From Candidatus Bathyanammoxibius amoris (GTDB lineage Bacteria; Planctomycetota; Brocadiia; Brocadiales; Bathyanammoxibiaceae), in the NCBI GenBank assembly GCA_024451685.1, contig JAMXCW010000014.1:4357-56212 (forward strand): a stretch of 51,856 nt of DNA, in the 5' to 3' direction. The translations under genes and the position numbers were made by a program. Of this stretch, positions 1,845-51,856 are shown piece after piece. The notes below the pieces were generated by a model. It was not told the DNA's origin. It did no database searches and was given only the letters and a program-made list of their open reading frames with translations. The first letter of the stretch is position 1. Each line of letters starts with the position of its first letter.

Positions 1845-2465
1845 TTAACTTTTACTCTTCAGAAAACCCTGAAGCCTTAACATCCTTGATGATACTTCCT
1901 CCGCAAACTCTTCCGCAGAACCATCGCAATAAAGGACGGGGCCAAACGCCACCTTTACCGCGGGGCCAAACCTGAAAAGCTTCCTCGCCCTGGGCCAGAC
2001 CTCAAAGGCGCCGTCAATTACCGCCGGCACCACCGGTGAGCCCGACCTCCTGGCTATTGACGCTATACCGGGATGAATCTCACCTATACTTCCGTCACTG
2101 GTCCGCGTCCCCTCCGGGAACAACAATACGATATTGCCCCTTTTTAAACGCCTTATCGCCTCCTTCATGGCTCCGACGTCAACCCCGCTGTCATTCAGGG
2201 GAAAGGCGTTAAGGGACAATATCAACCAACGGAACAAAATAAACTTATGGAAGAGCGAACGCCTCGCCATTATATGAATCTGACGATTCAGCCCAACACC
2301 TATAAGCAGGGGGTCTACGTAACTCTGGTGATTACACACTATTAAAACCCCGCCGCTGCAAGGCACGTTCTCCCTGCCGAAAGACCTGTACCGCCAGAAG
2401 GCAGAAAAAACAAGCTGGGACAATATGCGCAAGAAACCATACCATATAGCCCTTATGACTTCCAC
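1845..2465 (-). CDS. plsC: 1-acyl-sn-glycerol-3-phosphate acyltransferase
   Basis: Transfers an acyl chain to lysophosphatidic acid to form phosphatidic acid at the inner membrane. The 206-residue protein has the acyltransferase block I NHQSYVDP (NHx4D) near residue 45 and block III FPEGTRTSDG near residue 116, with a hydrophobic N-terminal stretch for membrane association. Length is normal for the short bacterial PlsC form. The start is GTG at 2465 and no strong ribosome binding site is visible. It lies 25 bp after cmk and 26 bp before rpsA, so the three are probably one transcript. Exact acyl specificity cannot be read from sequence. Confidence 0.93.
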   Translation of the reverse strand: MEVIRAIWYGFLRILSQLVFSAFWRYRSFGRENVPCSGGVLIVCNHQSYVDPLLIGVGLNRQIHIMARRSLFHKFILFRWLILSLNAFPLNDSGVDVGAMKEAIRRLKRGNIVLLFPEGTRTSDGSIGEIHPGIASIARRSGSPVVPAVIDGAFEVWPRARKLFRFGPAVKVAFGPVLYCDGSAEEFAEEVSSRMLRLQGFLKSKS

Positions 2466-2490
2466 GTATAATCTGTATTCTACTTGAGGG

Positions 2491-3138
2491 CTAAATTTTT
2501 TTCAACAACCGTTCCACAACTTCTTCCACACTCAGCCCCGTGGTGTCGAGGCTGATAAAGTCCGGCCCGCTGCGCAAGGGTGATGCCTCGCGGGTACTGT
2601 CCCGCCGGTCTCTTTGTTTTATGTCCTCCAGTATCCCTTCGTAGCTAAGCCCTGTATTGTCGGGGCCCAGCTCTACGTAACGCCGCCTGGCCCTCTCTTC
2701 CGGCCGGGCATCGAGATAAAACTTGCGGTCGGCGTCGGGGAATACGACGGTGCCTGTGTCCCTGCCCTCAGCCACCGCATCCACACCCGCCGCCGCAGCT
2801 CTCTGTAATCCTACAAGGGGCTCCCTTACCTTCGCAAGGCTTGCTATGAAATGGACTTCTCCCGTTACCTCAGGGCTCCTTATCTCTCTGGTTACGTCTT
2901 CACCGTCTACAAGGACGCGGAGGCCCTCCCGGCCATCTTCTATCCTTATATCCGTCTTTTTTACCAGTTCGCAGAGTCTCTTCTCATCCCTGAGGTCAGC
3001 ACCGGCCTTGATGGCCTTCCAGGTAAAGGCCCTGTAGAAGGCACCTGTATCTATATATCGGTAGTTCAGCCGCTTTGCCAGGGCCCTGGCGACGGTACTC
3101 TTGCCAGAACCCGCAGGGCCGTCCATAGTAATAATCAA
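2491..3138 (-). CDS. cmk: Cytidylate kinase
   Basis: Phosphorylates CMP and dCMP with ATP, feeding CTP synthesis. The P-loop DGPAGSGKST is at the N-terminus, followed by YRYIDTGAFYRAFTWKA and the AEGRDTGTVVFPDA segment typical of the CMP kinase family. I chose TTG at 3138 because AGGTGG lies just upstream and the protein then begins directly before the P-loop (215 residues, normal length). The frame is open to another TTG at 3189, which would add 17 residues with no family counterpart. It heads a cmk-plsC-rpsA group on the minus strand. Confidence 0.93.
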   Translation of the reverse strand: MIITMDGPAGSGKSTVARALAKRLNYRYIDTGAFYRAFTWKAIKAGADLRDEKRLCELVKKTDIRIEDGREGLRVLVDGEDVTREIRSPEVTGEVHFIASLAKVREPLVGLQRAAAAGVDAVAEGRDTGTVVFPDADRKFYLDARPEERARRRYVELGPDNTGLSYEGILEDIKQRDRRDSTREASPLRSGPDFISLDTTGLSVEEVVERLLKKI

Positions 3139-3262
3139 CCGTCCACCTACCCGTTGTAAAGGTTCCAGGCGGGCCGCACAATCTAGCAAAAGGTCATGAC
3201 CATTTCAATGGTTTTTTAGGGCTACGGGGTGCGCACCGTACCACCGCCCGCCCCATGACCAC

Positions 3263-5596
3263 TTAGCGTCTGGCCCTCTTTCTCGTCCACCACTCTGTCG
3301 TCAGGGCGCCGATGACTATCATAAAAAAGACCCAGTTGTCCCACAGAGTGTACGTCCTGCGCCCCAGAAGTCTCATCACTTCCGGATTCTCCAGTCGTAA
3401 AGACTTATGGACGTCAGACACGGGGAGTCTGAAAAACTTCCCGCCCGATGCCTCGGCTATCTTTTCCAGAACGGCCTCGTCCGCCTGCAGCTCACGGAAC
3501 TCTTCCATCCTGGAGATGACGCCGAAAAGGGCCGACGCCTCACCTAATAATTCATCAGCGCCGGCTTTTGCCCTTACGGCCTTTACCTGTACCCTGTAGA
3601 ACCCTGCGGGAAGGTCCTTGCAGGAAAAACAGCCCAGGCCACGAGAATCCGAGTCCAGGGTCTTTTCAAGGACCTTTTCCCCGGTCTCAGCGTTTATAAT
3701 CTCCAGGTCTATCCGAGCGCCGGCAACGGGCTTATAGTCCCTTCCAAGTACCTCGGCCTTCAGGTGTACCTCTTCCCCCGGCAGGTACTCTTCCTTCTGT
3801 GGGGCGATACGAACCAGATTAAGCTCCGGGTCCCTGACAAGCCACCTGACTGCGTTATTCCAGAATTTCATGTAATGCCTGTTGCTGCCCCCTCTGGCAA
3901 TGGACAAGAAATTCCACCTCCAGGAGCCGTCGGCCAACATGGCCATGGTCCTCCCCTTGCCGACGTCCCTGACGGCCAGGACCGGTCTTTTATGCCCCGG
4001 ATGCACGCCTAGAGTGACGGCCCCCTGCTTCTCACCGCCAATAACGTTACACCCGTCAAGTTCGGGAAATTCCTCCCACACACTCCTGTTCCTTGCCTCA
4101 TCGTACTCAAGGGTTGTTATCGGATGGGTCATCCCCTGGGCGGTGAGAACGGGTCTAAAATCCTCAGCGTCTATGCGGTCTACGCCTTCATCCAGTTCCA
4201 CAGGCAGGATGTCTTCAATAGGTGTGTGGTCGTACCCCCCGTGCGAAAAGGCAAGGTCGCCGCCCACCATTAGAAAACTCCCTCCGGTCTCCACAACGAA
4301 CCTTTGAATATTGTCCATATAATATGAAAACCGCAGGTAAGCGGAATCATAAGGACGGTAATCAAAGTTCTGGAAGATCACCAGGTCAAAGCTGTCCAGG
4401 GCCTGAGTGAAGAGTTCATCCACGGGGAAAGGGATAAGGCTCAGTTCCCGGCTCGGTGCCGCCACAAGGTCGGTCGGGGTCCGCAGGATAAAGAAGGAGA
4501 TAAGGTCTATGCTCGGATCTTTTTTGAGGACGCGCCTCAGAAAAAGCTCGTCCCAGGAGGGCCTGCCACAGAGGTGAAGCACCCTTATCTTGTCACGTAT
4601 GACGTGCAGCAACACGCTGGCGGTATTGTTCTCAGAGACAAGCTCGTCGGCCAGCGGCGGCACGGCGACGGTGTAGAGGGTGTTGCCGGTAGAATACGGC
4701 ATGGCCTTCATTGTAACAACGTACTCCTCCTTGCCGGGCACTACCTTTATCGGCCTGGATAGTATAATCTTGCCTCCCTCCTTCAGGGTTAGAGGCAGGG
4801 TAACGTTGTCATATCCTTTTACCCGAACGGTAACCTGTACGTTCCAAGGGTTCCGTATGAAGGCGAAGCTGTCTGCGACTACCTTTTTAATCGCTATGTC
4901 CTTATACTCTTCGGGGGGCGGCCCGAAGGTAAATACGGGTGCCGGTAATTGCTTCGCGAGTTTCTCCAGCTCCTCAAGTTTTTCTCCCGCTGGGACATCG
5001 CTTGAGTCTCGTCCGTCTGAAAACAGCAGTACGCCGCTCAGATGCCCGCCGCGATAGCGTTTTATAAGCCCCCTCAGAAGCGCGGCAATGTCCGTAGACC
5101 GGCCATCCAGGTTGATACCGCCTTCCACGTCGCTTCTCCTTATTTCCTCTAAAATCTTCTTATCGGGACCGGGGAAGCTAAGGCAGTCCACGTCAAAATC
5201 CCTCTCCAGGAGTTCAAAAAATTTCCTGTTGCTCCGGAGGAATTCCCTGACACTTTGAAACCTCTCACGCTGCCCGGCCTTTACGGCCATGCTCTTTGAA
5301 TCGTCAAAAACGAGCGCCACTTTATTCTTTATCCGTGCCGTCTCCAGCTCCCAGACCTGGGGCTCAAGTATCATAGTTATGAGCGCGGCAGTCGCAACAC
5401 ACCTGAGGAAGATGACAAAAAGCTTAGTGCGGGCGGAGGGAATCCTGCGCAGGCCCATCCATGACATGACGATTATGGCCAGGCCCAGTATCAACACTAC
5501 GGCCCTGAGCCACGGGTCCGTAACGCCGGCAAAGGTCAACGACCACTCATCCCCATGACCGGGGCCGGTAAGGAACGTTTTCAATAAATCAAGCAC
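3263..5596 (-). CDS. VWA / glutamine amidotransferase-like membrane protein
   Basis: A 777-residue protein anchored in the membrane by two N-terminal hydrophobic helices (about residues 30-50 and 60-80) and a C-terminal helix ending in a basic tail. A von Willebrand A-like domain follows the first pair: it has the metal-site signature DDSKS near residue 97 and LLFSDGRDSSD near 190. The middle resembles a class I amidotransferase-like fold (LVIFQNFDYRP then GGSFLMVGGDLAF), with no catalytic Cys recognised, and is followed by an Ig-like segment. The start is GTG at 5596, one base after the stop of the DUF4159 gene, so the two are translationally coupled. Such pairs occur in MoxR/DUF58-type clusters, common in Planctomycetota. 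The molecular role is unknown; cell-envelope function is inferred. Confidence 0.8.
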   Translation of the reverse strand: MLDLLKTFLTGPGHGDEWSLTFAGVTDPWLRAVVLILGLAIIVMSWMGLRRIPSARTKLFVIFLRCVATAALITMILEPQVWELETARIKNKVALVFDDSKSMAVKAGQRERFQSVREFLRSNRKFFELLERDFDVDCLSFPGPDKKILEEIRRSDVEGGINLDGRSTDIAALLRGLIKRYRGGHLSGVLLFSDGRDSSDVPAGEKLEELEKLAKQLPAPVFTFGPPPEEYKDIAIKKVVADSFAFIRNPWNVQVTVRVKGYDNVTLPLTLKEGGKIILSRPIKVVPGKEEYVVTMKAMPYSTGNTLYTVAVPPLADELVSENNTASVLLHVIRDKIRVLHLCGRPSWDELFLRRVLKKDPSIDLISFFILRTPTDLVAAPSRELSLIPFPVDELFTQALDSFDLVIFQNFDYRPYDSAYLRFSYYMDNIQRFVVETGGSFLMVGGDLAFSHGGYDHTPIEDILPVELDEGVDRIDAEDFRPVLTAQGMTHPITTLEYDEARNRSVWEEFPELDGCNVIGGEKQGAVTLGVHPGHKRPVLAVRDVGKGRTMAMLADGSWRWNFLSIARGGSNRHYMKFWNNAVRWLVRDPELNLVRIAPQKEEYLPGEEVHLKAEVLGRDYKPVAGARIDLEIINAETGEKVLEKTLDSDSRGLGCFSCKDLPAGFYRVQVKAVRAKAGADELLGEASALFGVISRMEEFRELQADEAVLEKIAEASGGKFFRLPVSDVHKSLRLENPEVMRLLGRRTYTLWDNWVFFMIVIGALTTEWWTRKRARR

Positions 5597-5597
5597 C

Positions 5598-6404
5598 CTA
5601 CATCTGCCTCCTCAGGATGAACGGGAGGTGGACCTGGTCCTGTTTGTAGTCGCCGGTAAGTGCGTATAATATGATGTTGATCCCCAGCCGGAAGGCCATG
5701 GTACGCTGGCGCTCACCCCCGGGGAAGACCTCGTACTCCCAGTTCCCAAGGCCGTCTCTGGCCCAGGCGCCGCCGAGGTCGTTCTGCGAATATATCACGG
5801 CCGCGCGGCCTTCGAGGTTAAGCTCTTCGAGGTATGGGTTTACCATAAGCCTTCCACCCTGCCTGTTCACAAGATAGAAGGCCCTGTAGATGGTGTGTTC
5901 ATCGGGTATTTTGGCAAGTTTTTTGCCGGGAAATATGGCGGCGAGTTCACGTCTCAGGGCCTTGTCGAAGCCGTAACCCGGCTTACCCGCATTGTCATCC
6001 ACAAGCAGCATTCCGCCAAACTCCAGGTACCTCTTGAGGTTCTCCTTCTCCCTGGCGTTAAACGGCTCAAAGTCCTGGTCCCCGGCCATATATATAAACG
6101 GATAATTAAAGATGGCCCGGTCGTGGGGTTTAACGCCGTTAACGCTCAAGCTTGCCTCTACACTGGTCCTCTTTACCAGTTCCCAGACCAGCGCCCTTCC
6201 CGCCCTGGGCCGCGGGTTCCAGTTGCCGCCCCTGTACTCAAGCTGGGCGAAGACGAACCTGGACTTCCCGCCCATCGCAAATACACCGGGGGTAAATGCG
6301 TTGGAGGAAAGGTATAAGACACACAGACCCGACAAGAAAAATGTCGGACCGAGAAACCCCCTGTGCCTTATCGTTCCTACGACAGATTTTAACGTGCAAA
6401 TCAT
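5598..6404 (-). CDS. DUF4159 domain exported protein
   Basis: A 268-residue protein with an N-terminal hydrophobic segment (about 18-38) that could act as a signal peptide or anchor. The rest is the DUF4159 domain: FAQLEYRGGNW at the start, YPFIYMAGDQDFEPF, then YLEFGGMLLVDDNAG and a C-terminal FRLGINIILYALTGDYK. The glycine-rich GGMLLVDD part resembles the inactive amidotransferase-like fold. It is immediately upstream of, and coupled to, the large VWA protein. Function is not known; DUF4159 genes usually travel with VWA and MoxR-type genes, so a shared membrane-associated complex is a reasonable inference. Confidence 0.85.
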   Translation of the reverse strand: MICTLKSVVGTIRHRGFLGPTFFLSGLCVLYLSSNAFTPGVFAMGGKSRFVFAQLEYRGGNWNPRPRAGRALVWELVKRTSVEASLSVNGVKPHDRAIFNYPFIYMAGDQDFEPFNAREKENLKRYLEFGGMLLVDDNAGKPGYGFDKALRRELAAIFPGKKLAKIPDEHTIYRAFYLVNRQGGRLMVNPYLEELNLEGRAAVIYSQNDLGGAWARDGLGNWEYEVFPGGERQRTMAFRLGINIILYALTGDYKQDQVHLPFILRRQM

Positions 6405-6439
6405 TTACGGTCGGCTTCTGACTCCAGTCACTAAAATCA

Positions 6440-7663
6440 TTAATTACCCCTTACCCGTACAAAGAACTCGTTAACATCATCGTAGCTGTCCTTGACAATA
6501 TTAACAATCTTGCCGTCCAGGGCCCCTCCTGTTACTTGTTTATCAAGAATGTCTATCACCTTATCTTTTTTCAGGTGTTTCCGATATGGCCTATCCTCAG
6601 ACAATGCCGTAAATACATCGCTGACGGCCATCACCCTGGACCCGACAGACATGTCGCTACCGGGGATGCGAAATGGATAACCCGTGCCGTCAAGTCTCTC
6701 ATGATGATAGGCCGCCCACTTGCTCATCTCATCAAAACCCTTTATATTATTCAATATGTGAAAGGTATAAAAGGTATGCTGCTTGATGATGTCAAATTCT
6801 TGTTCCGTTAATTTTCCGGGTTTTTCGAGGATCTCGTCTGGTATCGAAAGCTTACCTACATCATGCAGCAACCCGGCAAGCGACATCATCAAGACCTCCG
6901 TCTCGGAGAATCCAAACATCCTGGCAGTTTTTGTGGCCACACTGGACACCCCGCGGGAATGTATCTGTGTAAATTTGCTTTTGTCATCGATAATCGTGGC
7001 AAACACCTCACCCAGGTTCATAAGCGTCTCAACGTCCACAACAACTTTGTCCTGTTCGGCTACGATTCTGTCCAGAAAATTATGGGCATTTGCCGGCGCA
7101 AGGTCCAGCCAGAAGGACTCTGCCAACGCCAATTTGTTAAAACAGTCCACCAAGTCCGGCCTAAAATACATTCCCCTGTAATTGTTAACACTTTCACAGA
7201 CCCCCTTCTTTTGTTCAAGTACATACACGTCTTTCTCAAGCAATACATCAATACGGTCCGCCAGAAAGACCATACCGCTTAACAATGGTATCTCATGCTT
7301 GGACAAACCGGATGGATTCCCGCCCTCCCATTTGTCATGGTGAAATCTTACCACATGAGCTATCTCTTCCAGCGGGGGATAACTCATCAGCAGCCTGTAT
7401 CCTCTCTCGGCGTGATCCGACCCTTCAACAACATCAAACTCTTCAAGTTTGCCCTTCTCTCCAAATGACGATATACCAGCGTCGTGGAGCAGACAAGCGT
7501 ACAAGAGCACGGTTTTATCGCGTTTGCTTAAACCAAGCTCATCGGCAAGCTTTTGTGCAATTACCGCAACACGTGAATGGTGTTCCCCTATGCCTGAGAC
7601 TGTAAACTCAAGCGCCCTCGAAAGCGCCAATATTACGGCGTTCTGGTCGATTGAAAACTTCAT
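6440..7663 (-). CDS. Tandem HD-GYP domain phosphodiesterase-like protein
   Basis: 407 residues built of two HD-type metal phosphohydrolase domains. The C-terminal domain (about 230-395) has H267-D268, then HHERLDGTGYP at 320-330, and is a canonical HD-GYP, the type that hydrolyses cyclic di-GMP. The N-terminal domain (about 20-145) also has HD at 60-61 and a related HHDKWEGGNPSGL segment in which GYP is replaced by GNP, so it looks like a diverged HD-GYP copy. No sensor or receiver domain is present. It likely acts in cytoplasmic second-messenger turnover, but the substrate is inferred from family membership only. Confidence 0.88.
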   Translation of the reverse strand: MKFSIDQNAVILALSRALEFTVSGIGEHHSRVAVIAQKLADELGLSKRDKTVLLYACLLHDAGISSFGEKGKLEEFDVVEGSDHAERGYRLLMSYPPLEEIAHVVRFHHDKWEGGNPSGLSKHEIPLLSGMVFLADRIDVLLEKDVYVLEQKKGVCESVNNYRGMYFRPDLVDCFNKLALAESFWLDLAPANAHNFLDRIVAEQDKVVVDVETLMNLGEVFATIIDDKSKFTQIHSRGVSSVATKTARMFGFSETEVLMMSLAGLLHDVGKLSIPDEILEKPGKLTEQEFDIIKQHTFYTFHILNNIKGFDEMSKWAAYHHERLDGTGYPFRIPGSDMSVGSRVMAVSDVFTALSEDRPYRKHLKKDKVIDILDKQVTGGALDGKIVNIVKDSYDDVNEFFVRVRGN

Positions 7664-7716
7664 TTTTCAGCCCCCCTGCCTGTGGCATTAAATGAAATAC
7701 GGCTGCAAGCAAACGG

Positions 7717-8274
7717 TCAAGGATTGTCCTCTTGTTTCTCCTTCACCGGTATATTTTCCACGGCCTTTCTCATAGCCTTTGCCACTTCCTTCGACTTTAT
7801 AAGCACTGACGCCTCATTATTGGTCCTAAGGCCGCCGAAGGTCCAGTTGTGACTGCCGATGATGGTTATCTCGTCGTCGATTACCAGTAGCTTGTTATGG
7901 GTGGTGATATTATCCGTATCATAAACGACGTTTACACCGGCACTCTTAAGGAAATTGTAGGCATACTTGTTGTTCGCGTCGGGGTTGTCCTCCAGTATAA
8001 CGCGTACGTCAACGCCCCTGTTCTTGGCGGCGATTAAGTCCCTCAACAAAAGGCTCTCTCCCCCGAACGGGTGGTTCACGCTGAGTTGCGACATGTACAT
8101 CACGCAGAGGATTTTTTCCTTTGCGCCCGTTATGGCCTTGCGGACGACCTGAAAATAGTCCCTGTTAACAAGGGGTATAACGTCGTCCGCCGCCGCGGCA
8201 CGGGAAGGGGGGAAAAGAAAGAGACTCGGGAGAAGCGACACCATCATAATGAGTAAAAACCTGCGTGAAATCAT
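7717..8274 (-). CDS. Exported PLD-like nuclease/phosphodiesterase
   Basis: 185 residues with a clear signal peptide (basic MISRR, a hydrophobic core, cleavage probably after SRAAA). The mature part is a single phospholipase D domain with the HKD motif HNKLLVIDDEITIIGSHN and the downstream NNEAS block. Single-HKD proteins of this size, such as the Nuc type, act as dimers to cut DNA or other phosphodiesters, here outside the cytoplasm. The ATG start overlaps the mtaB stop as ATGA, so translation is coupled to mtaB, and GGAGG lies 11 bases upstream. The actual substrate is unknown. Confidence 0.87.
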   Translation of the reverse strand: MISRRFLLIMMVSLLPSLFLFPPSRAAAADDVIPLVNRDYFQVVRKAITGAKEKILCVMYMSQLSVNHPFGGESLLLRDLIAAKNRGVDVRVILEDNPDANNKYAYNFLKSAGVNVVYDTDNITTHNKLLVIDDEITIIGSHNWTFGGLRTNNEASVLIKSKEVAKAMRKAVENIPVKEKQEDNP

Positions 8275-9563
8275 CGTCTAAGAGCCTCCTCTCCTCTCCT
8301 ATGCGCCCTTACGTAACCCGGAAAAATCTCTGTCACCTCGACCGGTACAATCTCACCTGTAAGTTCTCGTGGTCCGGGAAACAGGGCCTTTATGTAACGC
8401 TCAGAATAGCCCGAGAGCATACCGTCGGAACGCTCTTCCTCCACAAGGACATCTATCGTCTTTCCCAGGAATCTTCTTTTATAGTCCAGCGCCAGTTCAC
8501 TCTCTAACCCCTCGATTACGGCCTTTCTGGCCCTTATTACCTCAGCGGGGCCGGGACGGTCCTGCATACGTGCGGCCGGCGTGCCTTTTCTGGGGCTGAA
8601 GGGAAAGATGTGCATCCTGCTGAAACCTGCCTGACGGCAGACATTGAGGGTGTTTTCAAACTGTTCCGGCCCCTCGCCGGGGAAGCCCACCATAACGTCC
8701 GTAGAGAATGAGGGGTTGGTCAGCCTTGACCTGACTTTTTCTATGACGTCGAGATATTGCCCCGCGGTGTACCGCCGGTTCATCGTTTTTAGAATTTTGT
8801 CGTCACCGCTCTGAAGTGAGAGATGGAGGTGAGGGCATACCTTGCTCCCTTCACCGGCCATAAGGTCGATTAGCTCATCGGTCACCTCCGACGCCTCCAG
8901 GGAACTCAGTCTTATCCTGCGGATACCGTCAATCTCCCTCAATCCCCTCAGGACGTCAGTGACTGTGACGCCGTCCAGGTCACGGCCGTACGCGCCGAGG
9001 TGTATGCCCGTGAGAACAACCTCCCTGTAGCCGTTCCCGGCCAGCCTCCTCGCCTCTGACAGGACATCCTCCGGGGGTTTACTCCTGATAACGCTGCCTC
9101 TCAGCGCTGGAATGATACAGTAGGAGCAGTGCGCGTCGCAGCCGTCTTCTATCTTCAAAAATGCCCTGCTGTGGCCCTCGAACCTGCTGATACCCAGATC
9201 GGCGGGTGAATAGTCCTCGCCCATCTCCTCAAGCAGCGATTCCGTGAGGTCCTCTCTACAAATTACATCGTCCACGCCTTCTATACCCCTAAGAATCTCA
9301 GGGTCGGCCTTGGCATAACAACCCGTCACGATAACCTCGGCATCGTGTCCCAGGCGCACGGCCTTTCTTATCTCCCGTCTGGACTTCCCCTCGCTGGTCG
9401 ACGTTACGGCGCAGGTATTGACCACGTAGAGGTCGGCGGGACTGTCCGAAGGCACCTCCCGGTAGCCCTTCCTGCCCAAAAAAACCTCACGCAGTACCTG
9501 GGTGTCATACTGGTTCGCCTTGCAGCCAAGCGTGATGAACGCACAGGTCTTCGGCAATTTCAA
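8271..9563 (-). CDS. mtaB: tRNA t6A37 methylthiotransferase MtaB
   Basis: A radical SAM enzyme that converts t6A37 to ms2t6A37 in tRNAs reading ANN codons. The 430 residues have the usual three parts: an N-terminal MTTase domain starting TLGCKANQYDTQ with conserved cysteines, the radical SAM cluster motif CDAHCSYC (Cx3Cx2C), and a C-terminal TRAM-like region. The TLGCKxNxxD start and overall length fit MtaB better than MiaB or RimO. It overlaps the PLD-like gene by four bases. Confidence 0.92.
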   Translation of the reverse strand: MKLPKTCAFITLGCKANQYDTQVLREVFLGRKGYREVPSDSPADLYVVNTCAVTSTSEGKSRREIRKAVRLGHDAEVIVTGCYAKADPEILRGIEGVDDVICREDLTESLLEEMGEDYSPADLGISRFEGHSRAFLKIEDGCDAHCSYCIIPALRGSVIRSKPPEDVLSEARRLAGNGYREVVLTGIHLGAYGRDLDGVTVTDVLRGLREIDGIRRIRLSSLEASEVTDELIDLMAGEGSKVCPHLHLSLQSGDDKILKTMNRRYTAGQYLDVIEKVRSRLTNPSFSTDVMVGFPGEGPEQFENTLNVCRQAGFSRMHIFPFSPRKGTPAARMQDRPGPAEVIRARKAVIEGLESELALDYKRRFLGKTIDVLVEEERSDGMLSGYSERYIKALFPGPRELTGEIVPVEVTEIFPGYVRAHRRGEEALRR

Positions 9564-9655
9564 AAAACCTCCAGAAAAACAGAAAAATCACATTTTAACT
9601 GTATCAGAACGCTTGTATAAGCGTCAAGCTGGTAATATTAGGATAAACACACGCG

Positions 9656-11350
9656 CTAGTACTTGTAGCGGTTCGCTATGGGCATCCTGCGGTCCCTTCC
9701 AAGCGCCTTCGGGGTTATCTTTATTCCGGGGGCGGCCTGGCGGCGTTTGTACTCGTTCTTGTCAACCATGGCGATAACCCTCTTCACAACCTTTCTGTTA
9801 TAACCCTTTGCTACGATCGCCTCGAAGCTCTTGTCATCCTCGACGTACGCCTTCAGTATGGGGTCCAGGACGTCAAACGGGGGCAGGGTGTCTGAGTCCT
9901 TCTGCCCCGGCCTCAACTCCGCCGACGGTTCTTTCTCAAGAACCCTTTTGGGGATTATTTCTTTATCCGAGTTCCGGAACCTCGCAAGTCTATAGACAAG
10001 GGTCTTGGGGACGTCCTTGAGCACGCCGAACCCCCCAACCATATCACCGTAAATAGTGCAGTACCCGCAGGAGACCTCGCTCTTGTTCCCCGTATTGAGC
10101 ACGAGCGAGCCAAACTTGTTCGACAGGGCCATGAGAACGTTCCCCCTTATCCGCGCCTGTATGTTCTCCTCCGTCTTGTCCTCCCCGTAGCCCCTGAAGT
10201 GTCCCGTAAGGTTCCACAGATACTCATTGAACAATTTGTGTATTGGTATTGTCTTCAACATGATACCCAGGTTTCTCACCAGTTCCCCGACGTCCTCTCC
10301 GCTTTCCATCGAGGTATAGACCGACGGCATGAAAACGCCGCAGACGGCATCCCTGCCCAGCGCGTCTACCGCAATCGCGGCCGTCAATGAGGAGTCTATC
10401 CCGCCGCTTACACCGATGACCACCCTCTTAAGACCGTTCTTGACCAGATAATCCCTCAACCCCAGAACCAGGGCCCGGTACACCTCATCGAGGGGTTTCA
10501 GGTGGTCCCGGCTAATCTCAGGCAGAGGCGGTTTCCCCCGGCCGCTTATCACCTTCGATATGGCAACCGCTCCGCGTGTGGTGCTGGCCCCAACGGGCAT
10601 CTTCAAATCAGCGGCCAGCAGCTCCTCCTCAAAGGCCCCGGCCAGGGCAACGCGTTTACCGTCACCGTCCATGATAAAACTCTGCCCGTCAAAGACCAGC
10701 TCGTCCTGCCCGCCGACCATATTCGCATAAGAGATAAACACCTTGCTGTCGAGGGACTGCTTGCGTATAACCTTTTCCCGTAATTTTATCTTGCCCGCAT
10801 GATAGGGCGAGGAGTTTATGTTTACGATAAGCCCCGCGCCCTCACGGGCGAGCTTGGCGGTAGGGCCGTCCTCCTGCCAGACGTCCTCACAGATGTTGAC
10901 CCCGAAGGCGACGCCGTCCATCACAAATACAGGCGTCTCCCTGCCCGGAGCAAAATACCGTTTCTCGTCAAAGACCCCGTAATTGGGCAGGAGTATCTTG
11001 TGGTAGACCTTTATGATTTTCTTGCCATATATTACCGCCGCGGCGTTATAGACATGATCACCGGCCCTATCCGCAAAACCTACAACCGCGACTATATCCT
11101 TCACCTTCTTAGCGAGGCCGGAGAGGGTTTTCTTGTTGTCCTGGACGAAACTGCGATTCAGCAGGAGGTCTTCGGGCGGGTATCCGCATACCGCCAGTTC
11201 GGGAAACGAGACGATATCCGCCCCGATGCGCCTCGCCTTCTCGACATATTCGAGTATTTTGCGCGAGTTTTCATCCAGATCACCGACGGTCACATTTATC
11301 TGCGCAATCGCGACCCTCAGTTCTTTCAGTTGCTTGTCTTTGCCTTTCAT
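9656..11350 (-). CDS. nadE: Glutamine-dependent NAD+ synthetase
   Basis: Catalyses the last step of NAD+ biosynthesis: amidation of deamido-NAD+ with glutamine-derived ammonia and ATP. The 564 residues hold an N-terminal nitrilase-type glutaminase domain (FPELAVCGYP with catalytic Glu, KILLPNYGVFDEKRYF with Lys, GVNICEDVW with Cys) and a C-terminal synthetase domain with the ATP-binding loop GVSGGIDSS and the segment NTGNKSE. The order and length match the two-domain glutamine-dependent form. The start codon is ATG at 11350. Confidence 0.96.
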   Translation of the reverse strand: MKGKDKQLKELRVAIAQINVTVGDLDENSRKILEYVEKARRIGADIVSFPELAVCGYPPEDLLLNRSFVQDNKKTLSGLAKKVKDIVAVVGFADRAGDHVYNAAAVIYGKKIIKVYHKILLPNYGVFDEKRYFAPGRETPVFVMDGVAFGVNICEDVWQEDGPTAKLAREGAGLIVNINSSPYHAGKIKLREKVIRKQSLDSKVFISYANMVGGQDELVFDGQSFIMDGDGKRVALAGAFEEELLAADLKMPVGASTTRGAVAISKVISGRGKPPLPEISRDHLKPLDEVYRALVLGLRDYLVKNGLKRVVIGVSGGIDSSLTAAIAVDALGRDAVCGVFMPSVYTSMESGEDVGELVRNLGIMLKTIPIHKLFNEYLWNLTGHFRGYGEDKTEENIQARIRGNVLMALSNKFGSLVLNTGNKSEVSCGYCTIYGDMVGGFGVLKDVPKTLVYRLARFRNSDKEIIPKRVLEKEPSAELRPGQKDSDTLPPFDVLDPILKAYVEDDKSFEAIVAKGYNRKVVKRVIAMVDKNEYKRRQAAPGIKITPKALGRDRRMPIANRYKY

Positions 11351-46956: not shown

Positions 46957-47292
46957 GTGGCAAGTTACTTGGTTACGGGCGGTGCCGGGGTTGTCGGCTC
47001 ACATATAGTTGAGACACTCTTGCAGAAAGGAGAGGATGTAAGGGTTGTTGACAGTTTTTCCACGGGGAATAGAGGGAATCTTGAGCCTTTTAACCACAAG
47101 TTCGAGCTTATCGAAGCAGATATCAAGGACGCGGCTTCCGTAAAAACGGCTGTCAGCGACATAGATTACGTCATACACGTGGCGGCCCAGGGTCGACTTG
47201 GAAAGCAATATTACCGGGATGTTCGCCGCTTTATCAGGTCCAATTTCTTTTCAAGGCAAAACACATCCCGCTTGCCCTCTATGATGATTTAA
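46957..47292 (+). pseudogene. Truncated NAD-dependent epimerase/dehydratase
   Basis: GTG at 46957 (GGGGGAC upstream) starts a normal short-chain epimerase N-terminus: YLVTGGAGVVGSHIVETLL (GGxGxxG NAD site), VRVVDSFSTGNR, and DIDYVIHVAAQ at the expected position near residue 67. After about residue 75 the homology stops, the frame ends at 111 residues and the substrate half (Tyr-x-x-x-Lys) is missing. It is a broken gene of the GalE/SDR type at the edge of the foreign region. An alternative is a local sequencing error, but no epimerase residues appear in the other frames. Confidence 0.8.
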
Positions 47293-47419
47293 ATTATACT
47301 GGCAAAATCTTTGGCGGTCCCTGTAAAATTCTAACGTTTCAAACCGCGCACCGTCCGCCTGAAGACACGGCGGTGTGAAAGTATGTTAAGCGTCATAAAA
47401 TAATATACGTTTCCTCAAT

Positions 47420-47470
47420 GCCCACGTGGCTCAACGGCAGAGCACGGCATTCGTAATGCTAACCGAAGGG
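47420..47470 (+). tRNA. 5' fragment of tRNA-Thr (CGT), incomplete
   Basis: The sequence matches the 5' two-thirds of a tRNA: acceptor strand GCCCACG at 47420-47426, D-arm GCTC/GAGC around loop AACGGCA (47429-47443), and anticodon arm CGGCA-TTCGTAA-TGCTA with anticodon CGT at 47452-47454 (Thr). One pair of that stem is mismatched. No T arm (GGTTCGAATCC-like) and no 3' acceptor strand follow, so the gene is truncated and not functional. It is a typical trace of an attachment site or of a rearrangement at the boundary with the phage-like region. Confidence 0.75.
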
Positions 47471-47761: not shown

Positions 47762-47789
47762 TTGACATCTGGGTTTTTTGTGGTAAACT
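47762..47789 (+). promoter_or_regulatory. Sigma70-type promoter for the MerR-like gene
   Basis: TTGACA at 47762-47767 and TAAACT at 47784-47789, 16 bp apart. The palindromic motif at 47837-47850 lies about 40 bases downstream of the predicted start, before the ATG at 47938. Confidence 0.55.
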
Positions 47790-47836: not shown

Positions 47837-47850
47837 ACAAACGTTTGCGC
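47837..47850. promoter_or_regulatory. Palindromic operator-like motif, copy 1
   Basis: A 14-bp sequence ACAAACGTTTGCGC with the perfect core palindrome CAAACGTTTG at 47838-47847. Its exact reverse complement occurs at 51045-51058 in front of the excisionase-like gene. It lies between promoter and start of the MerR-like gene. A repressor or activator site is inferred. Confidence 0.65.
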
Positions 47851-47937: not shown

Positions 47938-48597
47938 ATGGACACAACTACCAAGAAGCTAATTGCCAAGATGGAGGCGAAGGGTTACCGGCTTACAGAG
48001 GCGATGCTCAGCCAGTGGGCACGCAGAAAACTCCTCCCGCCTGCTACAAGGGTGGGTAAAGGGCGCGGGAAACCACCTCGTGCAGTATACCAGCCTCACA
48101 TCGTTGAGCGTATTGAAACGATCTGCCGGATGCGGAAAGAGGATAAGGGGCTTGTTGAAATCGAGAAGTACTTAATAAAAGAGCACTTAGGCAGGCTTCT
48201 ACTCTTCCTTGAGGAACACAGTTTACAAGACACAGAGACGTATAAACGCTTAAGAAAGTGGCAAGGGCTGCGTTGGGAGGCGTTGGGGCGCATCGCGGGC
48301 TTTGACAGCCGCCAGTCTCCAGATCGGACCGAGGCGGAAGATTATCATTTTATTTCAAAGACCTACAACGAAACTCCGGCACAAATCGGGAAAAGGGTTG
48401 TATTACTGGAATACGATACTGTTATGCGGGAGATGAACAATAATTTTATACGCAAGAACACTCTAAAGACGATTTTAGACGAGGTGCAACAACAGGATTT
48501 AACTAGAGAAGCCGTAGAGAAAGCCCGTAGGACATTAGAAAGAAAACATTCCGAACTAGAACAGAGATTAAGCGGAGTCCTGGCAAAGCTACATTAA
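47938..48597 (+). CDS. MerR-like helix-turn-helix protein, phage-type
   Basis: 219 residues from ATG at 47938; an upstream TTG at 47845 in the same frame overlaps the palindromic operator and is less likely. The N-terminus looks like a MerR/HTH-type DNA-binding domain: MEAKGYRLTEAMLSQWARRKLLPPATR, then a basic, proline-containing wing (RGKPPRAVYQPHIVERI). The C-terminal third is a predicted coiled coil (DEVQQQDLTREAVEKARRTLERKHSELEQRL). It is the first gene right of the junction, 20 bp before the zinc-motif gene. Probably a regulator; family assignment tentative. Confidence 0.7.
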   Translation: MDTTTKKLIAKMEAKGYRLTEAMLSQWARRKLLPPATRVGKGRGKPPRAVYQPHIVERIETICRMRKEDKGLVEIEKYLIKEHLGRLLLFLEEHSLQDTETYKRLRKWQGLRWEALGRIAGFDSRQSPDRTEAEDYHFISKTYNETPAQIGKRVVLLEYDTVMREMNNNFIRKNTLKTILDEVQQQDLTREAVEKARRTLERKHSELEQRLSGVLAKLH

Positions 48598-48616: not shown

Positions 48617-50755
48617 TTGGGAAGTAAGAAGCGAAAGAAAAAACAGAGTACAGAAGAACTAATAGAAAGGCTGGTTGGCCATATCTTAGAGTTTTTTGTG
48701 GCAGTCGCGAAAGACCCACACCTAGGATTACCCGGCCTCGCCCCGTTCACAGCAACACGGCTTGTCAATAACTACATCGACGTGCCCCCGTCCGAAATGG
48801 CACAAGCCCTTGACCGACACGGGGGGCTTAACACCACCAAAGGCAAACCCCCGTCTATAAAGCCACACAAAACAGAATCCCTGGACAGGTTTCTTGTTTC
48901 CATGCTCAAGGCCATACTGTCATGGGAATACGCAAGGCAAAGCCCGGCCCTATTTGAAGACTATTACCTGCTTGTTCATACATACCAGTACAACACTAAA
49001 TCCCCGTCCAGTGAACAGTACAGGTTTCTTCGGTCCGTGTATACCAACGAAAACGTTCTGAGACTGTGGCACCTCCGAACTTTTGGGGGTGCATACATTC
49101 AAACCTTGTCACGCCTCAACAAGAGACACCACCACATTCTTGAAGAAAACGAAAGACTATTTAAAGATTTGGGGAGACGGATTGACCTTGCAATACATGA
49201 ATTAGAACAGGGGAAGCTTAAGGGCTACAAGTGGGACGGCACAGAAGAACTTATAACAGACGCTCTTAAAAACACACCGGAAAGCCGCGACTTCATGCTC
49301 AAATACGGTGTGTACCCCACCCCCCCCGATTTTAAGATGCCATTGGGTAGTTTGTTCCCCGTGTTTCAGGTAGAGAACGTAAACATTGAGGTAATGATGC
49401 GCACCTTGGATGTGTACGTTTTATGGAAAAAACGGGGCTTATTCCCCGAAGAGATAGCCCAGAAAATCTACCCCGACATACCCCAAAAAAACAGGCTCAA
49501 CCGTGTGCGTGAAGACCTTTGGCGCGGCATTAAGGAGGTTGAGCGCCGCGACATATCCAAGGCCGAACTTAAAGACATCCTCGAAGAGCCACCTTGTTTG
49601 CCATGCGACAACTGTGAAGAAATTGGCGGTTGTGAGATATATGCAGCCTCCCCCGGATGTATCGGTGTGGGCAAGCCTTTGCGTAGTACGGTAAGGAGGA
49701 CAACTTGCCGGATACATGAAAAGAGAATGGAATACTATTACCCTAAGAATGCTTGGGTTAAAGACAAAGGGTGGTATAGGTTTGGGAAAAAGTTTTGCGG
49801 GGTGCATCACGGACTATGGAAGAAACTCTCGGTAGGTAAAGAGGGCACCGACAAGGCGGGGGAACGATACCTTAAATGGGGGAGACTATCTTCCAGTGAC
49901 AGACATAGAGATCCACTGTCCATATTGTATGTAGGGCGTTATGGGTTTTACGATAAAGAAGGTTTAAAGGGGCGGGACGAAAGGTTGTATCAATTCTTTT
50001 TTGGTAAGCCTGAATTTTCAAGCAAGAAGGCAGCGTTGAAGTTTCTTAAGGTTGACAGCATTGACCCCAAGATTGCAGAGCAGAAAGTATACCTTTGGTG
50101 GCGGCGTATTAAGGGGGAACGTAAAACGCCTCGTAATACAGGCAAGAGGTATTGTGGCATCTGCATAACGCGCGAAGCACGAGAAGACGAATTAGTTTGT
50201 TCGCGTTGTTCTGAATATAAATGTTCTGGGTGTGGGGGCAAAGGTGCAGGGCGTTGTGGTTATAATACAATTTATACTTGTGACGGGTTATTGTCTCCTG
50301 TCTTCCCACAACAAGAGAAGCCAGAGCGGCTACTTAACCATGACATAGCCTGGCAAACGCTCCGGGCTTATCTTATCCTGGCAGAGCCGGAGGAGAAACA
50401 CACACCGCCGAAGCGAGGGTTGCGAGAGGTCTGCGAAATGTGCGTATCTCTCGTGTCAGAAACGTTTGTACGGCTAGAGCCTAAAACGTTATTTGTATGT
50501 AAGCTTTGTGTGTTTGGCGTCTTTAAGACCGACGACCTTTTTGAAGAACCCCGAGTAGCTAAGGCGTCCGAAGGGAAATTTAGGAAGCTTCCCAGCCGGA
50601 AAGATTGTGTTATGTGCGGCAAGCCAGTGAGAGGTGGGTATCGCCCCACCTGTTCAGCGACACACTGGAGAAAATATAAGGCGTGGGTGTGGGAACGGGA
50701 AAATATCAGGTGGTTTTATACGACGGTTTACGACGAAACGAACAAGGGGCGTTGA
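48617..50755 (+). CDS. Large multi-zinc-motif protein of unknown function
   Basis: 712 residues, TTG start with GGTGG and AGGAG upstream. The first ~320 residues are mostly helical with no motif I recognise; near 275-320 the segment VLWKKRGLFPEEIAQKI may be a helix-turn-helix. The rest is rich in Cys/His pairs: CLPCDNC plus CEIYAASPGC at about 327-347, CGICITREAREDELVC and CSRC, CSGC at 513-540, CEMC and CKLC at 606-635, and CVMC near 664. This suggests four zinc-ribbon-like modules. No nuclease, polymerase or helicase motif is seen. It lies between the MerR-like and the excisionase-like genes of the phage-like region. Function unknown; nucleic-acid binding is inferred. Confidence 0.72.
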   Translation: MGSKKRKKKQSTEELIERLVGHILEFFVAVAKDPHLGLPGLAPFTATRLVNNYIDVPPSEMAQALDRHGGLNTTKGKPPSIKPHKTESLDRFLVSMLKAILSWEYARQSPALFEDYYLLVHTYQYNTKSPSSEQYRFLRSVYTNENVLRLWHLRTFGGAYIQTLSRLNKRHHHILEENERLFKDLGRRIDLAIHELEQGKLKGYKWDGTEELITDALKNTPESRDFMLKYGVYPTPPDFKMPLGSLFPVFQVENVNIEVMMRTLDVYVLWKKRGLFPEEIAQKIYPDIPQKNRLNRVREDLWRGIKEVERRDISKAELKDILEEPPCLPCDNCEEIGGCEIYAASPGCIGVGKPLRSTVRRTTCRIHEKRMEYYYPKNAWVKDKGWYRFGKKFCGVHHGLWKKLSVGKEGTDKAGERYLKWGRLSSSDRHRDPLSILYVGRYGFYDKEGLKGRDERLYQFFFGKPEFSSKKAALKFLKVDSIDPKIAEQKVYLWWRRIKGERKTPRNTGKRYCGICITREAREDELVCSRCSEYKCSGCGGKGAGRCGYNTIYTCDGLLSPVFPQQEKPERLLNHDIAWQTLRAYLILAEPEEKHTPPKRGLREVCEMCVSLVSETFVRLEPKTLFVCKLCVFGVFKTDDLFEEPRVAKASEGKFRKLPSRKDCVMCGKPVRGGYRPTCSATHWRKYKAWVWERENIRWFYTTVYDETNKGR

Positions 50756-50840
50756 GAACTTTAAAAAAATTCTCTAGATAAGCCCTTTTGGTGATTGTCC
50801 TCCTGTCACACCAACCCGTTATACTTCCCCAGCTTATAAT

Positions 50841-50890
50841 AAATATCAGAGTTTTCAGACTACCCCTTAGTAGGGGAGGAGGTTTTTTCT
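50841..50890 (+). repeat. Duplicated hairpin element, copy 1
   Basis: This 50-bp unit begins AAATATCAG, continues with TTTCAGACTACCCC, forms the stem CCCC/GGGG around TTAGTA and ends in a T run (TTTTTT). The same arrangement recurs at 50993. It could end transcription of the zinc-protein gene. Confidence 0.7.
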
Positions 50891-50960
50891 TCCTTCCCAT
50901 CAGAGAAGTTTTTTTGAAAAACCCCCAGACACCCGCTTTTTACTTTGGCCGTGTTTACCC

Positions 50961-50991
50961 CCGTAACATTTAGCCAACATAGTTGTTACGG
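50961..50991. repeat. Perfect 8-bp inverted repeat
   Basis: CCGTAACA at 50961-50968 pairs with TGTTACGG at 50984-50991 around a 15-base loop. It directly precedes hairpin element copy 2. Operator or RNA-level role is unproven. Confidence 0.65.
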
Positions 50992-50992
50992 T

Positions 50993-51043
50993 AAATATCA
51001 GCCATTTCAGACTACCCCTGTATGTGGGAGGGGTGTGTTTTTC
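50993..51043 (+). repeat. Duplicated hairpin element, copy 2
   Basis: Like copy 1: AAATATCAG, TTTCAGACTACCCC, a stem ACCCCT/AGGGGT with a larger loop, then GTGTTTTTC. Sequence differs in the loop while the stem is kept, which argues for an RNA structure. It ends just before the palindromic motif. Confidence 0.7.
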
Positions 51044-51044
51044 T

Positions 51045-51058
51045 GCGCAAACGTTTGT
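51045..51058. promoter_or_regulatory. Palindromic operator-like motif, copy 2
   Basis: GCGCAAACGTTTGT, the exact reverse complement of the 47837-47850 copy, with core palindrome CAAACGTTTG at 51048-51057. It lies about 45 bases before the start of the HTH gene and probably overlaps its promoter. Confidence 0.65.
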
Positions 51059-51102
51059 TTATAAGGTTTTACTTCTATATCGTTTTATTACGGAGATACT
51101 CG

Positions 51103-51324
51103 ATGGAAGACACAACCGCGGCCCAAGAGCCGATTTTAACCATCGGTGAGGTTGCTAAAATGCTACATACAGACCCTTATCGTATTCGTTATCTACTTGT
51201 GCGTGGCCACTGTCCGGACGTCCAGCAACTCGCAAACAGGCGGGTCTTCAGTGCCAAAGATGTTTACCGTGTAAAGAAGGCGCTGGAAGACACAAACGGG
51301 ACGCGGCACGGGGAGGGGCGTTAG
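51103..51324 (+). CDS. Excisionase-like helix-turn-helix protein
   Basis: 73 residues from ATG at 51103, with GGAGA upstream; the frame is open further up but without support. TIGEVAKMLHTDPYRIRYLLVRGHCP is a MerR/excisionase-type winged HTH, followed by the wing RRVFSAKDVYRVKKAL. Proteins of this size act as excisionases or phage regulators. It is preceded by the palindromic motif and followed after three bases by the replication gene. Probably a regulator of the module; role inferred. Confidence 0.75.
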   Translation: MEDTTAAQEPILTIGEVAKMLHTDPYRIRYLLVRGHCPDVQQLANRRVFSAKDVYRVKKALEDTNGTRHGEGR

Positions 51325-51327
51325 TGG

Positions 51328-51856
51328 ATGGTGAAGAAAAAAGAACCGGGCGCGAACCCGCAGACGGAGAACGGATTTTTGCGGGTTGCGAATGAGTTGG
51401 CCGAAGCATTTTGTTTCGTGAATTTATACCCATACGAATCGCGGGTGTTGTGGTATGTCTTGCGGAAGACTTTTGGATGGAGCAAAAAAACTGACCGGAT
51501 TCCACTCTCGCAGTTCTCGAAAGGCGCTGGACTAGACAGGCGGTTAGTGCATCGGGCCTTAAAACAATTACGAGAGAAGGGGCTCATTGTCATCACTAAA
51601 GATGACAAGAACCACATAAGCTATGGGTTAGAAAAGGACTACACAAAATGGCGAGTGTCGTCTGCAAAGATGACTGTCATCGGTAAAGATGATGGGGTGT
51701 CATCTAAGAAGATGACGGACCTGTCATCTCCAAAGACACCCTCAATAGACAATATATCAAAAGACACTGTATCAAAAGACATATTGTCCGGCAAGCCAGA
51801 CAGCGTGTCCCTCGAGATAATTGACTACCTAAACAAAAAGTTAGACACCCACTATC
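51328..51856 (+). CDS. Phage replication protein O (partial, right edge)
   Basis: At least 176 residues, cut by the window end; ATG at 51328. The N-terminus is a phage replication O domain (winged helix): GFLRVANELAEAFCFVNLY, TFGWSKKTDRIPLSQFSKG, RRLVHRALKQLREKGLI. Then a Lys/Asp/Ser-rich linker, then the start of a second domain (SLEIIDYLNKKLDTHY) that resembles the conserved phage C-terminal domain of such proteins. The linker DNA carries the iterons and AT-rich tract reported separately. It should recruit a host or phage helicase to the origin, by analogy with lambda O. A loader or helicase gene would be expected to follow. Confidence 0.88.
   Translation, partial: MVKKKEPGANPQTENGFLRVANELAEAFCFVNLYPYESRVLWYVLRKTFGWSKKTDRIPLSQFSKGAGLDRRLVHRALKQLREKGLIVITKDDKNHISYGLEKDYTKWRVSSAKMTVIGKDDGVSSKKMTDLSSPKTPSIDNISKDTVSKDILSGKPDSVSLEIIDYLNKKLDTHY
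51588..51740. repeat. Five 18-bp iterons (putative lambda-type origin)
   Basis: An interrupted palindrome GTCATC-N6-GATGAC recurs at 51589-51606 (perfect), 51657-51674 (GTCGTC...GATGAC), 51676-51693 (GTCATC...GATGAT), 51699-51716 (perfect) and 51723-51740 (right half diverged). The centre usually ends in AAA. The last four are spaced 19-24 bp, close to two helical turns. They lie inside the O gene and followed by AT-rich DNA, as in lambda. Confidence 0.85.
51741..51786. other. AT-rich tract with direct repeat (possible unwinding element)
   Basis: Directly right of the iterons the DNA is AT-rich and contains two copies of TATCAAAAGACA at 51755-51766 and 51770-51781, 15 bp apart. This is the position of the AT-rich unwinding region in lambda-type origins. 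The repeat also encodes SKDTVSKDI, so it could partly reflect protein sequence. Confidence 0.65.

Follow-up and report, generated by a model that had tools for sequence, protein, structure and literature searches.

What is the role of a 712-residue protein that resembles no recognised family, and on what kind of DNA is it carried? This question is raised by a gene of Candidatus Bathyanammoxibius amoris at positions 48617-50755 (+) of a stretch of 51,856 nucleotides, hereafter called the window. The original prediction read the product as a possible new phage protein that acts on nucleic acids or in host takeover.

Cysteine modules of the 712-residue protein

As predicted, the gene is a single open frame of 712 codons; it has a TTG start. 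All 22 cysteines of the protein are confined to residues 327-679, where they form eight CxxC pairs. Shuffled proteins of the same composition contained on average 0.65 such pairs, and none of 5000 shuffles reached eight. When the C-terminal part was shuffled on its own, the mean rose to 1.17 pairs, and again no shuffle contained eight. Four to five cysteine clusters can be distinguished: a region of mixed Cys/His from C327 to C398, C513-C531 (CxxC-x11-CxxC), C536-C555, C606-C631 (CxxC-x18-CxxC) and C664-H683 (CxxC-x11-CxxxH). Given these clusters, the earlier description of about four zinc-ribbon-like modules, with many CxxC pairs over the C-terminal half, is a fair one. The ligand pattern suggests that the modules bind zinc.

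A single-sequence structure prediction of the whole protein had a pLDDT of 34.5 and was discarded. The N-terminal half (residues 1-325) is predicted to be helical, according to the secondary structure of a poor model. A model of the C-terminal segment reached a pLDDT of 54, and its best fold match in the PDB had an E-value of only 0.09, which is not significant. Residues 61-90 of this segment were modelled with a pLDDT of 72-84 and a helix after C81; a treble-clef arrangement is plausible here, although no fold match was significant. A second copy of the treble clef was looked for inside the protein but not found. Both structure models were too weak to identify a DNA-binding fold.

The protein was compared with Pfam, PHROGs, NCBIfam, PADLOC and the sequences of the PDB, and no score was meaningful (Pfam 0.29, PHROGs 0.3, none in the others), which agrees with the earlier statement that it has no recognised family. 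Segment-by-segment scans gave no significant match either. Furthermore, GenBank phages and plasmids (tblastn) and the contigs of IMG/VR and GTDB (scanned with the single sequence) yielded no match, and no full-length homologue was detected in several hundred genomes of the same order, class and phylum. In Pfam, PHROGs and NCBIfam, the protein matched no transposase family (catalytic DDE, Y1, serine or tyrosine), none of the primase domains Zn_ribbon_DnaG, Toprim, Prim-Pol and PriCT, and no helicase motif. Transposase and primase identities were rejected because of this lack of domain matches.

Insertion into a tRNA gene

The DNA around the gene has a sharp left boundary. A tRNA-Thr(CGT) gene starts at 47420 and breaks off in its anticodon arm at 47459, after 40 nt; unrelated DNA follows from there on. 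This tRNA half and the chromosomal flank before it (47383-47459, +) are an exact 77-base match to the end of another contig (C17; G000, L022), which carries the complete tRNA-Thr. Exact overlaps such as these 77 bases arise in assembly at a fork, so the tRNA-Thr site was assembled in both its occupied and its empty state. This fits a source in which cells with and without the element were mixed, and suggests that the element is active or has recently moved. Less likely, the overlap stems from a second copy of the tRNA with an identical flank. A boundary at tRNA-Thr is near certain, and in view of this junction all DNA from 47460 to the contig end belongs to the element. A specific attachment site, here the anticodon arm of tRNA-Thr, is one of the features by which PICIs are recognised; in the literature, it is described as a site that prophages never use.

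Base composition and codon use also differ in this part of the window. The GC content is about 0.48-0.57 across most of the window and falls to 0.45-0.48 in its last 6 kb, while the match to host codon use is 0.52-0.59 for the element genes versus 0.62-0.77 for host genes. The window ends where the contig ends, and the assembly lacks the element's right half; for this reason no integrase or right end is visible. We searched the contigs of the genome for the last 77 bases of this contig (C14) and of contig C4, and no other contig carried them. An Rfam scan of the element gave sub-threshold matches only. Just left of the tRNA, at 46957-47292, lies a truncated sugar-epimerase-like frame, apparently a decayed gene.

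Genes and DNA signals of the element

The first gene of the element (47938-48597, +; ATG start) encodes a MerR-type DNA-binding protein of about 219 residues (Pfam MerR_1, E 7.5e-5; the score exceeds the gathering threshold). It stops 19 bases upstream of the 712-residue protein gene, as expected from the operon-like pair described earlier. In front of it lies a sigma-70-like promoter, TTGACA-16-TAAACT (47762-47789, +), which agrees with the consensus at 10 of 12 positions, although matches of this quality are no commoner than in shuffled sequence.

An operator-like sequence, ACAAACGTTTGCGC, with the palindromic core CAAACGTTTG, is located between this promoter and the first gene (47837-47850, +). 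A second copy, a perfect 14-base inverted match, precedes a small MerR-like gene further downstream (51045-51058, -). The window contains just these two copies at up to two mismatches, both perfect, where 0.24 would be expected. Since a copy stands before each of the two transcription units, a common regulator of both is suggested. The gap of 347 bases between the 712-residue protein gene and the small MerR-like gene (50756-51102) holds this second copy as well as two 49-nt direct repeats (50840-50888 and 50992-51040, +) that are 76% identical. The exact core of these repeats has no other copy in the window or the genome.

The small MerR/AlpA-like protein itself (51103-51324, +; about 73 residues; Pfam MerR_1, 2.4e-6) had been missed earlier. 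It is followed by a lambda-O-type replication initiator (51328-51856, +), which confirms that a phage replication gene lies close by. The initiator matched Phage_rep_O (5.9e-19), phrog_678 (8e-21) and TIGR01610 (1.2e-13, with a score exceeding the family cut-off), and is incomplete because the contig ends at 51856. Four or five palindromic iterons, TGTCATCnnnnAAGATGA, are clustered inside this gene (51588-51739, +); the window has 14 matches to the iteron versus 3.0 expected. In lambda-type phages the origin is located inside the O gene, and the iterons probably mark the replication origin of this element, too.

Relatives of the C-terminal modules

Only the last ~100 residues of the 712-residue protein have relatives. 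This part, encoded at 50426-50692 (+), consists of the ribbon CxxC-x18-CxxC (residues 606-631) and a treble-clef-like module, RKxCxxC..P....CSxxHxxKYxxW (residues 662-692). The original prediction named absence of homologues outside one contig as a refutation; at full length this is nearly the case, whereas the C-terminal end has such homologues. The genome encodes one other protein with both modules, at the end of contig C4 (L005:6107-7501); it is 32% identical over ~130 residues (E 7e-13) and keeps the zinc ligands. The C4 protein is partial, since the contig cuts off its N-terminal part, and it extends ~300 residues past the shared part. As in the window, its gene precedes those of a small MerR-like protein and a replication protein. 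The gene neighbourhood singled out earlier as a check is thus found again, with a replication gene of the DUF3631 type in place of the O type.

The treble clef alone occurs in small proteins of 78-89 residues, encoded in prophage-like late regions of two other genomes (G006 and G007) and of contig C15 of the same genome (L007:8616-8864, L018:8778-9014, L019:9265-9534). Profile scans with the C-terminal modules found no matches beyond these. The ligand pattern of the treble clef is kept in five proteins. The small treble-clef proteins are conserved in such late regions of this bacterial family and are encoded close to holin-like small genes. DUF2116, zf-FCS and YhfH treble-clef fingers resemble the C-terminal module in their CxxC ... 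CxxxC/H ligands, the helix that follows and the location at the C-terminus, but these matches are sub-threshold (E 0.06-0.08) and name no function.

Elements that share this gene order

Six further elements have the order large protein, small MerR/AlpA-like protein and replication gene. One belongs to the same genome (C4) and five to the same bacterial order (L049, L050, L051, L053, L054); these five were reached through the family of the small MerR-like protein, whose members precede replication genes in C4 and L049-L054. Wider searches added little: in IMG/VR, no hit was confirmed when the O-like, MerR-like or C4 proteins served as queries, and the small MerR alignment, scanned against GTDB, gave a single weak locus in Micromonosporaceae (L037).

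The C4 element encodes, in order, the zinc protein, the small MerR protein, a DUF3631 replication protein, a protein of 119 residues, an HTH_17 excisionase-like protein and a tyrosine integrase. The 3' half of a probable tRNA-His(GTG) (L005:2101-2150) adjoins the integrase, which indicates that this element, too, is inserted in a tRNA anticodon arm. In the elements of the order, the replication genes are of the Prim-Pol (L050, L054), CHC2/DUF3987 (L049), Toprim (L051) and O-like plus DnaB-like (L053) types. The recombinase lies at the opposite end from the slot gene, as we call the gene of the large protein; it is a tyrosine integrase in L049, L050, L053 and L054, and looks like a serine type in L051, judged by eye. 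In L053 the O-like gene, 35% identical to that of the window, carries iterons of its own, and the small MerR gene comes after two direct repeats.

The L054 element (2201-11224, G021) is complete: it spans 9.0 kb at a tmRNA gene, between two copies of a 28-bp direct repeat (at 2201 and 11197). L053 measures ~9.5 kb between 16-bp repeats, and L050 ~6.3 kb. From slot gene to integrase, ORF listing and family scans of some of the genes recognised no capsid or tail genes in C4, L053 and L054. L054 has a terminase-like gene that matches cyanophage terminase loci (E 1e-5). It also encodes an apparent HicAB-type pair.

The slot proteins of L049, L050, L051, L053 and L054 are 359-401 residues long and mosaic. 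X49 and X53 have a C-terminal domain in common (1e-11), X54 shares other parts with X49 and with X50, and X51 ends in a Trans_reg_C winged helix (5e-8). The 712-residue zinc protein showed no sequence likeness to any of these five. Hence, the position of the slot is constant and its content variable; in C14 and C4 it is occupied by zinc-module proteins.

Satellite or prophage

We infer that the small mobile element to which the gene belongs is most likely a phage satellite of the PICI/P4-like kind. A satellite-like class is fairly well supported, and a satellite is probably a better description than a prophage. Of the PICI gene plan, the regulator and the replication gene are present here; the integrase is present in C4, L050, L053 and L054, while the contig of the window ends before it. 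Another mark of PICIs is induction and packaging by a helper phage. The visible 4.4 kb of the element contains no phage structural or lytic genes. The earlier view of a phage protein holds for the mobile-element context, but an integrated satellite-like element fits better than a full phage genome, as no capsid or tail genes were recognised in the relatives. Nothing was found that points to host takeover specifically.

An ordinary lambdoid-like prophage with structural genes past the contig end, of which the 712-residue protein would be an orphan early protein, is rather unlikely. The nearest named relatives of the O-like gene are indeed those of lambdoid phages, and contigs C6 and C10 of the same genome hold lysogeny modules of prophage type, and C15 a tail-like region. 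Yet the first 4.4 kb of the element contain no CI-type repressor, and the relatives with this gene order, including the O-bearing L053, are ~6-10 kb in size without recognisable structural genes.

Two loci of the genome (L044:2977-5982 and L045:8238-11703) each encode an S24-type repressor and an integrase beside tRNA 3' halves. These lysogeny modules are possible helper prophages.

Proposed function and its alternatives

The slot that the 712-residue protein fills is taken, in the other elements of the order, by large proteins of variable, mosaic make-up, and the small MerR/AlpA-like activator and the replication gene follow directly; the function of the protein is deduced from this position. 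The helical N-terminal half may serve protein contacts, while the gap before the MerR/O operon, with its repeats and operator, may be where the cysteine modules bind DNA. Bound there, the protein would set the timing of excision and replication of the element. A regulatory role fits because the modules are of a presumed nucleic-acid-binding type, the gap holds repeats and an operator, and the MerR/replication operon lies downstream. The winged helix of X51 is a further point in its favour. In contrast, the gene and the replication operon are on the same strand, whereas classical repressors are usually divergent from the operon that they control; the protein also shares no sequence with other slot proteins, and lacks an identified DNA-binding fold. 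On balance, the protein most likely takes part, as a control or accessory factor, in regulating or copying the element, and we regard the chances of a DNA-binding control role as about even. The combined reading, a zinc-dependent DNA-binding regulator of excision and replication in a PICI/P4-like satellite, is put forward tentatively, at somewhat less than an even chance.

The variable slot could instead carry cargo, such as an anti-phage defence or helper-interference protein. Its variability and its location at the non-integrase end are in line with this, as are the frequent interference genes of phage satellites (PMC6092414) and the treble-clef module common to small proteins in resident prophage-like regions. 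However, the 712-residue protein had no PADLOC match, only one of the five other slot proteins matched PADLOC, and weakly (X53, E 0.002), and no nuclease or other effector motif was recognised. Cargo is a less likely interpretation than control, but a serious rival.

A role in replication itself, as a zinc-dependent origin-binding or primase-like accessory beside the O-like initiator, is likewise less likely than control, but also a serious rival. A replication gene adjoins in both C14 and C4, and zinc ribbons are frequent in primases and initiators, but the protein has no primase, Toprim, PriCT or helicase motif, and related elements with replication genes of several kinds do without it.

It is doubtful indeed that the protein is the first example of a class of master regulators or helper sensors of phage satellites built from several zinc modules. 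Because the terminal zinc module is common to small proteins of resident prophages, satellite and helper might recognise each other or compete through it. It is hardly credible that the frame is non-functional and its cysteine modules a product of decay or chance: the protein is an orphan at full length with a weak start signal (TTG), but its 712 codons are open where the other five frames have 19-53 stops, its CxxC count is far over chance, and the C4 protein keeps the zinc ligands.

Implications and comparison with known systems

The orphan protein, at first no more than the product of an unknown phage gene, can now be assigned to a satellite-like element integrated at a tRNA. Moreover, a recurring plan emerges in this bacterial order, with a variable slot protein, a MerR/AlpA-like protein, an interchangeable replication gene and an integrase. 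In our literature search, no paper mentioned phage satellites together with Planctomycetes. According to PMC6092414, it is unclear how Gram-negative PICIs are silenced; the slot proteins offer testable candidates for keeping Gram-negative-PICI-like elements silent.

The O-like gene has both features that define the Lambda O family, namely the N-terminal O domain and palindromic iterons within the gene. It differs from Lambda O in its sequence (~30% identity) and in that of its iterons, and no P-type loader is encoded before the contig ends.

Gram-negative PICIs such as EcCICFT073 are likewise small and integrated, and AlpA or MerR-type activators adjoin their replication module (PMC6092414). 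The likeness extends to the complete relatives L053 and L054, in which structural genes were unrecognised, and to the terminase-like gene of L054. PICIs measure about 12-15 kb (PMC6092414), whereas the relatives described here measure ~6-10 kb. The element in the window differs further in its O-like initiator, and its visible part contains no integrase.
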